64,000 nucleotides of DNA from Microbacterium mitrae (GTDB lineage Bacteria > Actinomycetota > Actinomycetes > Actinomycetales > Microbacteriaceae). Made by a program: the position numbers and the translations under genes. Below the pieces are notes generated by a model that was given only the letters and a program-made list of their open reading frames with translations, did no database searches and was not told the origin of the DNA. This document shows positions 60,977-64,000 of this stretch, one piece after another. Positions within the stretch are counted from its first letter, which is position 1. Each line of letters starts with the position of its first letter. The stretch lies in NCBI RefSeq assembly GCF_008017445.1, contig NZ_VRSW01000005.1:62001-126000 (forward strand), read 5' to 3'.

Positions 60977-62041
60977 ATGGTTGAAGCCTTCGTTATTCGA
61001 GCAGAGCGCTCCGCGGCGCCGCCGCAGCAGCGGGCGCGCGTGTTGCAACCGCTCGCCCGCTATCTCGATGACCCCGACGTTACTGACCTCTTTATCAATG
61101 GTTCCCGCGGCCTCTTTGTTGACCGTGGTCGTGGCAGCGAACGCGATGAATCGTGGGGAGCATCCGAACGCGAAGTGCGTGATCTTGCGGTCGCGCTGAT
61201 GGCGGCGGGAGATCGACACATCGACGACGCGCACCCCTGCGTCGATGTTCGGTTGGAAGGCGGCGTACGCGTGCACGCGGTTCTCGCCCCCATCGCCGTC
61301 GACGGAACCACCATCTCCATCCGCGTCGCGCGCATGACACAGCAGAGTCTGAACGAACTGGCGTCGGCGGGGATGCTCACTTCCGATCAGGTGCTGTGGC
61401 TACGGGAGGCGGTGCGCACGCGAGCCAATTTCTTGATTTCGGGCGCGGGTGGCAGCGGAAAAACCACCCTGCTCTCGGCGCTACTCAGCGAAGCGTCGCC
61501 AGCCGAGCGCGTGCTGACCATCGAAGATGTGGCTGAGTTGCGATTGCGGCATCCACATCATGTCGCGTTGGAGTCGCGTCAGGCCACCGTCGAAGGCGCG
61601 GGCGCCGTTTCGCTGGCGCAGCTCATTCGCGAGGCCCTCCGCATGCGGCCAGATCGGCTCGTCGTCGGAGAGTGTCGCGGGGCGGAGGTTCGCGAGCTGC
61701 TGAGCGCTCTCAACACGGGACATGACGGCGGCGCCGGAACCATCCACGCGAACAGCATGACTGACGTTCCGACCCGGCTTGAAGCGCTGGGGGCGCTCGC
61801 CGGGCTTGAAACCGGCGCCCTTGCTCGCCAAGTGGTGAGCGCGATGGACTTTGTCGTTCATCTGTCGCGAGGTTCCGACGGAACGCGGCGCGTCGACGCG
61901 ATCGGGTCTTTTGTGCTGGAAGACGGTCACCTGACTGTGACTCGCACCGATCTTGACCAGAGCTCGAACACCAAATTCGCGCAGACGGCGGCAGTCGCGA
62001 CGGAACCACTACGCAGAACGAGTGAGCACCATGCGGCATGA
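60977..62041 (+). CDS. Tad pilus assembly ATPase (TadA/CpaF family)
   Basis: Secretion ATPase that powers assembly of Flp-type pili, 354 residues. N-terminal region VTDLFINGSRGLFVDRG, Walker A ISGAGGSGKTTLLSALL near residue 158, Asp box TIEDVAELRLRHPHHVALES, Walker B-type RPDRLVVGECRGAEVRELLS, and His box GHDGGAGTIHANS. The Met chosen starts the family-like sequence; the longer frame is spacer. It is the first gene of a five-gene tad unit and overlaps the next by 11 bp. Confidence 0.94.
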   Translation: MVEAFVIRAERSAAPPQQRARVLQPLARYLDDPDVTDLFINGSRGLFVDRGRGSERDESWGASEREVRDLAVALMAAGDRHIDDAHPCVDVRLEGGVRVHAVLAPIAVDGTTISIRVARMTQQSLNELASAGMLTSDQVLWLREAVRTRANFLISGAGGSGKTTLLSALLSEASPAERVLTIEDVAELRLRHPHHVALESRQATVEGAGAVSLAQLIREALRMRPDRLVVGECRGAEVRELLSALNTGHDGGAGTIHANSMTDVPTRLEALGALAGLETGALARQVVSAMDFVVHLSRGSDGTRRVDAIGSFVLEDGHLTVTRTDLDQSSNTKFAQTAAVATEPLRRTSEHHAA

Positions 62042-62924
62042 GAGTGATGCGGCCGACGTGGCGGCGATAACGCTTCGAATCGCGGTCTTATTGGAGTCAG
62101 GCGCTATTCCCGAGCGCGTGTTTGGGTACCTCGCTGAGGCGAATGATGGCGACCACATCGGAGTGTGGGCGAGTCGAGTGCATACTCGCATTCAGGCTGG
62201 GGTCACGGTCGCCGATGCTGTGGAGGCAGAAGGCGGCTCATGGGTTTGGGTGGCTTGTGCGTGGCGAATCGCGGTCGCCGTTGGCGCGCCGGTGTCACCA
62301 GCGCTGCGCTCGATGGTCGGAGTCGCCAATGACTCGCGAGCAGCGTCCGACGACGTACGGATTGCGCTCGCCGAACCTGCCGCCACCGCGCGCCTGATGA
62401 TGTGGCTGCCGGCGGTTTCGGTCATCATGGGCGTCGCGCTGGGATTCAATTCCCTCGCGGTGCTCACCACCAATCCCATCGGAATCGGTTGTCTCGTTCT
62501 CGGCGTCGGCCTGATCATTCTTGCTCGATGGTGGACGCGCCGTATTGTCGCTGCCGCGAGCCCAGTATCCGTGGTTCCTGGATTGCGCGCCGAACTCATG
62601 GCGATCGCTTTGGCCGGAGGCTCCTCGCCCGCGCGAGCACGTCAGCTTGTTGATGACGTCGAACTCGGAAATGGCGACGATTCGGCTGAGATTGAGCAGA
62701 TCTTGCGCCTGTCGGTTATCGCGGGCGTGCCCGCGGTCGACCTGCTGCGCGCCAGCGCGACCGCGATGGTGGGGCAGGTGCGAGCTGCCGGGCGCCTCCG
62801 TGCCGCGCGCCTGGCGACCCGACTGCTGTTGCCGCTTGGCGTGTGCACGCTCCCCGCCTTTTTCCTGCTGGGTGTTGCGCCGATGATGCTCAGCGTGATC
62901 ACGAGCACCGAGGTGCCACTATGA
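62031..62924 (+). CDS. Tad pilus membrane platform protein (T2SSF/TadB family)
   Basis: Inner-membrane platform protein of 297 residues. The N-terminal cytoplasmic part (DVAAITLRIAVLLESGAIPE) holds a first T2SSF-like helical unit. A pair of central membrane helices (WLPAVSVIMGVALGFNSLAV, GCLVLGVGLIILARWW) follows, then a second unit (LRLSVIAGVPAVDLLRASAT) and a C-terminal helix (LLLPLGVCTLPAFFLLGVAP). Only one such gene is seen where many actinobacteria have TadB and TadC. ATG with GAGTGAG upstream; the GTG three codons earlier is an alternative. Confidence 0.88.
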   Translation: MRHESDAADVAAITLRIAVLLESGAIPERVFGYLAEANDGDHIGVWASRVHTRIQAGVTVADAVEAEGGSWVWVACAWRIAVAVGAPVSPALRSMVGVANDSRAASDDVRIALAEPAATARLMMWLPAVSVIMGVALGFNSLAVLTTNPIGIGCLVLGVGLIILARWWTRRIVAAASPVSVVPGLRAELMAIALAGGSSPARARQLVDDVELGNGDDSAEIEQILRLSVIAGVPAVDLLRASATAMVGQVRAAGRLRAARLATRLLLPLGVCTLPAFFLLGVAPMMLSVITSTEVPL

Positions 62925-62966
62925 CCGTGCCCGCCCGTTTTCGTGCCCACAACAGAAAGGAATGTC

Positions 62967-63224
62967 ATGACAGACATCACTGCGTCGCCGCACTTCGCGA
63001 CGGCGAAACCCGCCCGTCCGCTCACCTGGCGCGGCCGCGTTCGGGCGTGGACGAGGCGCGCCCACACGGTGGCGAACGATCAAACAGGCGCCGCGACGGC
63101 GGAGTACGCCATTGCCACGATGGCGGCGGTTGCTTTTGCCGGGCTACTGGTTGCGATCATGCGCTCCGACGAGATCAAGCAGGTGCTCACCGATCTAATC
63201 GAGCGCGCGCTGACTGTGCCGTAG
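62967..63224 (+). CDS. DUF4244 Flp-type pilin
   Basis: Small prepilin of 85 residues. A long basic leader (about 1-47) ends at the class III processing site DQTG|AATAEYAIATM, with Glu at mature position 5, followed by one hydrophobic helix (AAVAFAGLLVAIM) and a short tail. Actinobacterial DUF4244 proteins occur at this place in tad loci and are considered pilin subunits. ATG after AGAAAGGAA. It would be cut by a prepilin peptidase encoded elsewhere. Confidence 0.9.
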   Translation: MTDITASPHFATAKPARPLTWRGRVRAWTRRAHTVANDQTGAATAEYAIATMAAVAFAGLLVAIMRSDEIKQVLTDLIERALTVP

Positions 63225-63262: not shown

Positions 63263-63601
63263 GTGCGTTCGGTCTTGACATCAGAGCGGGGGAGTGCGAC
63301 CGCAGAGTTTGCGATCGCACTCCCGGCGGTCATGCTGGTGCTGTTTCTCATGTCGGCGCTGATCTCGGCGCAGGGGCAACAGATCTTGCTGCAGGACGCC
63401 GCGGCCGATGCGGCACGGCTCATCGCGCGAAATGACGATATTGCGCGTGCCGAAGCATCGATTGACGCCGCGGTCGCCGGAGCGCAGATGAACATCGTGG
63501 CCGATGAAACCCTGGTGTGCGTTACCGCGTCGGCAACCGTCACGGTCATGGTTCCGCTCACCCTCAGTGCGCGATCATGCGCGCTCGCTGGAGGGCGCTG
63601 A
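63263..63601 (+). CDS. TadE-like pseudopilin
   Basis: A 112-residue protein with an N-terminal TadE signature: ERGSATAEFAIALPAVMLVL (processing-site-like G|SATAEFA with Glu at +5), then a hydrophobic helix, and an extracytoplasmic domain with one disulfide candidate (VCVTAS, SCALAGG). Start is uncertain: GTG at 63263 is used; a TTG at 63275 is possible. No strong ribosome binding site. Its stop overlaps the next ATG by one base. Confidence 0.82.
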   Translation: MRSVLTSERGSATAEFAIALPAVMLVLFLMSALISAQGQQILLQDAAADAARLIARNDDIARAEASIDAAVAGAQMNIVADETLVCVTASATVTVMVPLTLSARSCALAGGR

Positions 63602-64000
63602 TGAGCGCCGTGATGAGTATCGGAACCATGACCGTCGTCGGCATGCTGGCGTTTGGCGCGGTAGCGGCGGGTGGGGCGGCCGTGACGGCGCAGCGCATGA
63701 GCGCGGCAGCCGACGCGGCTGCCCTCGCAGGGGCCGACACAGCGGCGGGGTTTGCTTCTGGCGAGCCGTGCGATGCGGCGGCACACGTCGCGGCGGCGCA
63801 TGGGGCGACGGTTGCCGATTGCGGAGTGGTCGGAACCACGGTGTCGGTGCGGGTGTACGCCGTGTTCGCCGGGTTTGACGTGTCGGCTGCCGCGCGTGCT
63901 GGGGTGCCGGCCACTAGCTCAGGTGGGGCGCAGTCGGGGTGGAGCAAACCAAGCGACGGCGAGATCACCTCCGGGTTTGGGCCTCGTGAGGCGCAGTGTG
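63601..64000 (+). CDS. TadE/TadG-like secretion protein fused to an M23-type peptidase domain (partial)
   Basis: The frame is open from the ATG at 63601 to the window edge (133 codons). Residues 1-110 resemble the Rv3654c-type pilus protein that follows TadE in actinobacteria: one N-terminal helix (IGTMTVVGMLAFGAVAAGGA), then QRMSAAADAAALAGADTA with further Ala-rich sequence. From about residue 111 a different sequence begins (SGWSKPSDGEITSGFGPREA); GEITSGFGPR is the usual opening of M23/LytM endopeptidase domains. The catalytic H/D residues would lie beyond the edge. It starts at the TadE stop (TGATG). Confidence 0.7.
   Translation, partial: MSAVMSIGTMTVVGMLAFGAVAAGGAAVTAQRMSAAADAAALAGADTAAGFASGEPCDAAAHVAAAHGATVADCGVVGTTVSVRVYAVFAGFDVSAAARAGVPATSSGGAQSGWSKPSDGEITSGFGPREAQC

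Follow-up and report, generated by a model that had tools for sequence, protein, structure and literature searches.

An M23 peptidase domain fused to an Rv3654c/TadE-like protein at the distal end of a Tad locus in Microbacterium mitrae

The last gene of a Tad (Flp) pilus cluster in Microbacterium mitrae, located directly 3' of tadE, encodes a protein of 243 residues (P0001) that consists of an N-terminal hydrophobic segment, an Rv3654c/TadE-like domain, a short linker and a C-terminal M23 peptidase. The gene is a genuine fusion that has been maintained at the distal end of an actinobacterial Tad locus. Its product may be a Tad-locus membrane protein onto which a peptidoglycan peptidase has been grafted and which would open the wall for the pilus, a reading to which we give about an even chance. 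The window analysed is a stretch of 64,000 nucleotides (G000:C6:62001-126000) of the source genome (G000; 2.82 Mb, 99.8% complete). The contig extends 2,233 bases past the window, and positions in that extension are given as window equivalents.

The fusion gene and its Tad locus

The locus comprises the following features.

60977..62041, plus strand: TadA ATPase (TIGR03819, 397.3 bits, above the cut-off)
62031..62924, plus strand: TadB/TadC-like platform protein (T2SSF; PF00482, 35.5 bits)
62943..63224, plus strand: DUF4244 Flp-pilin-like gene with a TG↓AATAEYA site (PF14029, 73.5 bits)
63263..63601, plus strand: TadE (Rv3655c family) minor pilin with an RG↓SATAEF site (PF07811, 32.6 bits; NF041390, 49.5 bits)
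63546..63631, plus strand: putative RNA hairpin, formed by an inverted repeat that spans the stop codon of TadE and the start of the fusion and encloses a ribosome-binding-like site
63601..64000, continuing to window-equivalent 64332 (G000:C6:125601-126332), plus strand: fusion gene, 243 aa
63601..63903, plus strand: Rv3654c/TadE-like domain with the N-terminal hydrophobic segment (aa 1-101; TIGR03816 at aa 3-101)
63940..64000, plus strand: first part of the M23 region (GEITSGFGPR), from aa 114

The fusion frame is open from the ATG at 63601 to a stop codon at L009:4330-4332, which ends at window-equivalent 64332. A ribosome-binding-like GGAGGG ends 5 bases upstream of the ATG, and the ATG shares one base with the TadE stop (TGATG). 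The original prediction, which was made within the window, held that the Tad-locus protein runs on in frame into an M23 peptidase, and the 243-residue frame with its successive matches to TIGR03816 and PF01551 bears this out. Past the window edge there is no early stop codon or frame change. The HxxxD and HxH motifs of M23 are both present there (H143-QGV-D147 and H224-V-H226), with the catalytic residues at window-equivalents 64027 (H143), 64039 (D147), 64171 (H191), 64270 (H224) and 64276 (H226).

The components TadA, platform protein, Flp pilin and TadE are all present in G000, and the DUF4244 gene has an alternative start ATG at 62967. A prepilin peptidase is encoded elsewhere in the genome (Peptidase_A24 at G000:C3:401304-401630, 34.2 bits, above the cut-off), as are four other M23 genes. 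A second TadA-like ATPase, at G000:C1:533227-534123, scores 266 bits with TIGR03819, which falls short of the cut-off (373), and possibly marks a second Tad locus.

The hairpin has a fold z-score of -6.56 in G000, and of -3.38 and -1.25 in G338 and G277, the two other genomes of the genus that carry the fusion. Its arms are, by eye, mostly invariant across the three species, wobble positions included. The hairpin could couple translation of the fusion to that of TadE.

Domain organization and predicted structure

The profile of the Rv3654c family (TIGR03816; named tadF in PMC9531140) aligns to residues 3-101 of P0001 with 49.8 bits in hmmscan and 51.3 bits in a six-frame search, the cut-off being 50.95. 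The Tad profile PF13400 scores 21.4 bits, just below its cut-off of 22.3. The best 19-residue Kyte-Doolittle mean, 1.88, starts at residue 10, and this hydrophobic segment suggests an N-in, C-out topology. A linker of about residues 102-113 leads to the M23 region, which starts at residue 114 and matches PF01551 at residues 142-238 with 85.9 bits against a cut-off of 28.7. A 29-row M23 alignment, with the G338 orthologue as its lead row, shows no variation at H143, D147, H191, H224 or H226.

The AlphaFold2 model of the G338 orthologue, which is 70% identical to P0001, has block-mean pLDDT values of 94-98 over residues 141-240 and is poorly confident in its N-terminal part, with values below 50 at residues 1-37 and 87-103. 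A Foldseek search with this model retrieved the M23 structures 6muk and 9gy1 (probability 1.00, rmsd 2.0), and also LytM.

No class III signal peptide (G↓xxxxE or G/A-X4-F/E) was found in the fusion, whose N-terminus reads MSAVMSIGTM in G000. A Gly occupies the first profile position in 76 of the 77 unfused Rv3654c members of the genus and is missing there from the fusions of the genus (g1), and a Glu at +5 occurs in neither group. Because the prepilin site is missing, incorporation of the fusion into the pilus is unsupported, and the protein is not classed here as a modular pilin.

Orthologous fusions and selection

The M23 fusion is rare in the genus: among the matches listed for 366 genomes, it is full-length in three, namely G000, G338 and G277 (499, 345 and 321 bits). 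The remaining matches listed start at query residue 21 or later and reach at most 146 bits. The fusions of G338 and G277 are 70% and 65% identical to P0001 over their full length. A search for the same architecture beside DUF4244 genes, proposed with the original prediction, succeeded in these two genomes, where the order DUF4244, TadE, fusion is the same. Their TadA proteins are also the nearest to that of G000 (85% and 81% identity), followed by that of G141 (70%). A related-locus search with A1 recovered one full-length fusion, in record CANNEP010000004.1, among the best 80 of 426 matches; the same kind of search with P0001 found no loci.

Simple NG86 estimates among the three fusion species, which are affected by high dS, give dN/dS ranges of 0.08-0.14 (M23 part), 0.10-0.24 (Rv3654c part) and 0.36-3.5 (short linker). 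By this measure, both halves of the fusion are under purifying selection.

Recurrent fusions with VanY and with a second M23 domain

The Rv3654c carrier was also found joined to a peptidase of another family. In G141, the nearest other genome by TadA, an Rv3654c domain (67.5 bits) located after TadE is fused to VanY (52 bits, cut-off 25), an M15 domain of the D-Ala-D-Ala carboxypeptidase type. Among the matches listed, G141 is the single genome of the 366 in the genus with a stop-free VanY fusion. Matches in G115 and G215 cover portions of the two halves only across stop codons, and these candidates were rejected.

Four further fusions were found in the 68 family loci that were read: VanY in G504 and G442 (42.5 and 39.4 bits), which are both of the g78 genomes in the family sample, and a diverged M23 domain in G461 and G379 of g15 (43.6 and 33.5 bits, cut-off 28.7). 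With TIGR03816, the Rv3654c parts score 54.8 bits in G338, 46.0 in G277, 52.8 in G504, 49.4 in G442, 48.9 in G461 and 44.8 in G379, so that one of the four fusions from other genera, that of G504, exceeds the cut-off of 50.95. T2SSF lies upstream of all four, TadE upstream of those of G504 and G461, and DUF4244 upstream of that of G461; no TadE match came from the frames tested in G442 and G379. Among five g15 genomes searched, G461, G992 and G989 have the fusion, G990 has an unfused Rv3654c in a 126-aa frame, and G991 gave no match. Together with G379, the fusion is present in four of the six g15 genomes examined. A link between loss of the prepilin Gly and fusion was considered and dropped, as the g78 fusions retain a Gly-rich N-terminus.

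The fusion domains of g1 and of g15 each form one group in the M23 tree (support 100/100), and a long branch (100/99) splits the two groups, with other M23 proteins on its g1 side. This arrangement argues for two separate M23 grafts. In the VanY tree, the G141 domain groups with free-standing VanY proteins from the genus and is widely separated from the g78 pair, but with support of 58/51 a single origin of the VanY grafts and two origins are both compatible with the tree. Among those long frames that were scanned with Pfam, no other enzyme was seen on the Rv3654c carrier, apart from run-on into topA.

Unfused Rv3654c loci

The genus survey covered 83 loci, the three fusion loci and 80 further Tad loci. 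Rv3654c matches were found in 81 of them, and M23 matches in the three fusion loci only. In most unfused loci the Rv3654c frame ends within a few residues of 'RAGPP', and in all 77 no M23 or VanY match was found, fused or nearby; such an enzyme is therefore not generally required at the Tad locus. topA lies at most 2 kb downstream in 73 of the 77 (79-781 bases). In G338 and G277 it is about 3.7 kb past the end of the Rv3654c domain, and in G000 the contig ends first. Between the fusion and topA, G338 and G277 share two similar genes of unknown function, at L071:7772-9153 and in the corresponding part of L072; the 73 unfused loci with topA within 781 bases have no room for them.

In total, 179 loci were scanned, of which 177 have an Rv3654c match (L117 and L120 have none); four are second copies, leaving 173 distinct loci. 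The neighbouring genes of these loci were scanned for two hydrolase families, M23 and VanY, with profiles built for this analysis, and convincing matches occur only inside the fusions. An unfused M23 or VanY neighbour was thus rejected as the usual state, given that the two matches outside fusions are weak (g15 M23 profile, 14.5 and 12.8 bits) and are taken as noise.

The Rv3654c family is present in 145 of the 150 Microbacteriaceae genomes of the family sample. The 68 loci read from it, besides those of G000 and G034, are the 8 best-scoring ones and 60 with frames of at least 230 aa; the remaining family loci, with frames of up to 230 aa, lie outside this set. In the class sample, at least 213 of 246 genomes have an Rv3654c match, and the 24 distinct loci read there contain no fusion. 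When 398 family genomes were searched with the alignment of the g1 fusions, the matches listed included no other full-length one. The same search missed the g15 fusion of G379 at its threshold, and the absence of further fusions is therefore not proven.

Long frames following Rv3654c were not all accepted as fusions: ten contain no Pfam family except Tad, L112 contains none, and all of these are taken as GC-rich run-on. The long frames of L263, L264, L265, L268, L269 and L273 were assessed by eye only. The Rv3654c frame continues without a stop into topA in G027, G009, G436, G470 and G396 (L134, L148, L239, L249 and L252); these open frames were counted as missing stops, with a Pfam check of G027 only. 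A cysteine-containing mini-ORF upstream of topA was dropped as probably the N-terminus of TopA.

Possible role of the fusion protein

The Rv3654c/TadE-like N-terminus would anchor the fusion in the membrane beside the pilus assembly platform and TadE, and the C-terminal M23 domain, facing outward, would cut peptidoglycan cross-links. The thick wall would be loosened locally, allowing a pilus or pseudopilus to pass. With the endopeptidase positioned at the pilus base, the wall would be opened at the pilus exit point, and the fusion would do, as part of the pilus locus itself, what dedicated wall hydrolases do for other machines that span the envelope. We infer the topology, the enzymatic activity, the association with the pilus and the wall-opening role from sequence comparisons. 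The wall-opening idea, already part of the original prediction, is partly supported in that it fits the genetics, and it is strengthened by the recurrence of grafts from two peptidase families on one and the same carrier. That wall peptidases were chosen repeatedly is the strongest argument for a carrier that acts at the peptidoglycan. Counting against this reading are the missing prepilin site, the unfused loci of the genus and of G990, the altered first motif of the g15 grafts, and the presence in G000 of four further M23 genes and a second TadA-like gene.

By 'Rosetta stone' logic, a broader and more tentative reading may be drawn: Rv3654c proteins would be the peptidoglycan interface of Tad machines in actinobacteria, and unfused members would recruit a free wall peptidase for the crossing of the thick wall by the pilus. 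We regard this as possible, with the balance somewhat against it. The peptidase would then have been grafted repeatedly in a few Microbacteriaceae lineages, M23 probably twice and VanY/M15 once or twice. In Micrococcus luteus, distal tad ORFs of the PF13400 type are essential for transformation and are suggested to be pilus anchors, and TadE and TadF may build a structure that sits at the base or passes through the wall (PMC4322843).

Alternatively, the Rv3654c N-terminus may be a mere anchor or export signal for a general wall-remodelling peptidase that has no link to the pilus. In favour of this, the closest relatives of the M23 domain, among the matches listed, are larger M23 proteins of the genus (frames of about 460-590 aa). 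They include a G000 paralogue that is 55% identical to the fusion domain, and one aligned larger protein has cysteines in common with it. The missing prepilin site is also in keeping with a simple anchor. A mere anchor would not account well for the conservation of the Rv3654c half (dN/dS 0.10-0.24), for the position directly after TadE in all three species, or for the presence of two peptidase families on the same carrier in three genera. We consider this alternative unlikely, though it is the one that survives best.

The peptidase could instead be displayed at or near the pilus tip and act on the walls of other cells, in predation, competition or DNA release. Minor pilins with grafted domains that are likely tip-exposed have been described (PMC8179133, PMC12607857). 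In Myxococcus, contact killing depends on a Tad-like apparatus and involves a local loss of peptidoglycan in the prey, for which the authors hypothesise a secreted hydrolase (PMC8460266). Against display, the fusion lacks the prepilin cleavage site, and TadE and TadF were undetected in M. luteus pilus preparations (PMC4322843). Display at the tip is judged improbable.

Finally, the domain might fix the pilus base to the peptidoglycan with little or no cleavage, in the manner of degenerate LytM proteins. The Foldseek matches include the amidase activator EnvC through its LytM domain, which is not known to be active by itself. In addition, the g15 M23 grafts have an altered first motif, in which the first His and the Asp are two residues further apart, and this makes activity of the g15 enzymes doubtful. 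Against this, none of the three g1 fusions has lost any of the five M23 residues, and all three VanY grafts retain, by eye, the M15 metal-site residues. A role confined to wall binding seems improbable. The end of the contig 1.9 kb downstream of the gene might point to an assembly or pseudogene artefact, which is ruled out in practice by the same fusion, under purifying selection, in three separate genomes.

Comparison with known systems

The fusion resembles other members of the Rv3654c TadE-like family (TIGR03816) in its position after TadE (Rv3655c family), its N-terminal hydrophobic segment, its A-rich domain and its HMM match. By contrast, most of these proteins end near 'RAGPP', and the fusion has about 140 more residues that hold the M23 domain. 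With the M23/LytM endopeptidases (PF01551) it shares the full domain, the intact motifs and, for the G338 orthologue, the fold match to 9gy1, 6muk and LytM; it differs from them in that its M23 domain rides on a Tad-locus TadE/G-like protein.

A small pilin-like N-terminus, a grafted module and a short linker are also found in the modular type IV pilins PilB and PilC of Streptococcus sanguinis; the paper that describes them also mentions IPR012902 pilins with peptidase modules of the S74 and M26 families (PMC8179133). The present fusions differ in having a Tad-type carrier, M23 or M15 peptidases and, in G000, no class III signal site. Caulobacter CpaL/TadG, a minor pilin-like protein with a vWA domain, similarly combines a Tad machine, a pilin-like N-terminus and a C-terminal module; its vWA domain, however, is proposed for mechanosensing (PMC12607857, PMC13170226) and is no enzyme, and the host is diderm. 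In view of the modular pilins and CpaL, the fusion is not unprecedented in kind.

Dedicated wall hydrolases such as VirB1 and FlgJ provide a functional parallel, a proposed local gap in the peptidoglycan for an envelope-spanning machine. These enzymes mainly cleave glycan strands, whereas the fusion is a predicted peptide-bond peptidase on a membrane protein of a pilus locus.

The original prediction knew of no described example. In agreement with this, searches of the open-licence PMC literature found no description of a fusion between a TadE/Rv3654c-like protein and a peptidoglycan peptidase. A wall peptidase built genetically into a Tad locus would be new. According to a 2025 structural paper (PMC12307814), no peptidoglycan hydrolase or lytic transglycosylase had been reported with the Tad pilus, and in PMC6916266 a role of PilO in monoderms is speculation only. 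The fusion bears on the question of how Tad and type IV filaments pass through peptidoglycan, especially the thick monoderm wall. As one small gene joins both functions, this question can be tested with a single point mutation, and natural variants with two enzyme families, together with unfused sister species, are available for comparison.

The region downstream of the fusion

A minus-strand gene pair follows the fusion in G000 (L009:4649-5829, window-equivalent 64649-65829). One of its products is PIN-like, with a PIN_3 score of 18.8 bits that stays under the cut-off (27), and the other matches HTH_17 with 42.1 bits; the pair is toxin-antitoxin-like. The end of L009 (G000:C6:128233) shares a repeat with L076:1-1667, at the start of contig C3, that appears transposase-like by eye. 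Beyond this repeat, C3 has a short stretch that resembles DUF4244 (83% over 81 bases), and the genes past that stretch look similar, by eye, to those directly after the fusion in G338 and G277. The shared contig-end repeat and the gene content of C3 suggest an insertion or duplication at the fusion locus.
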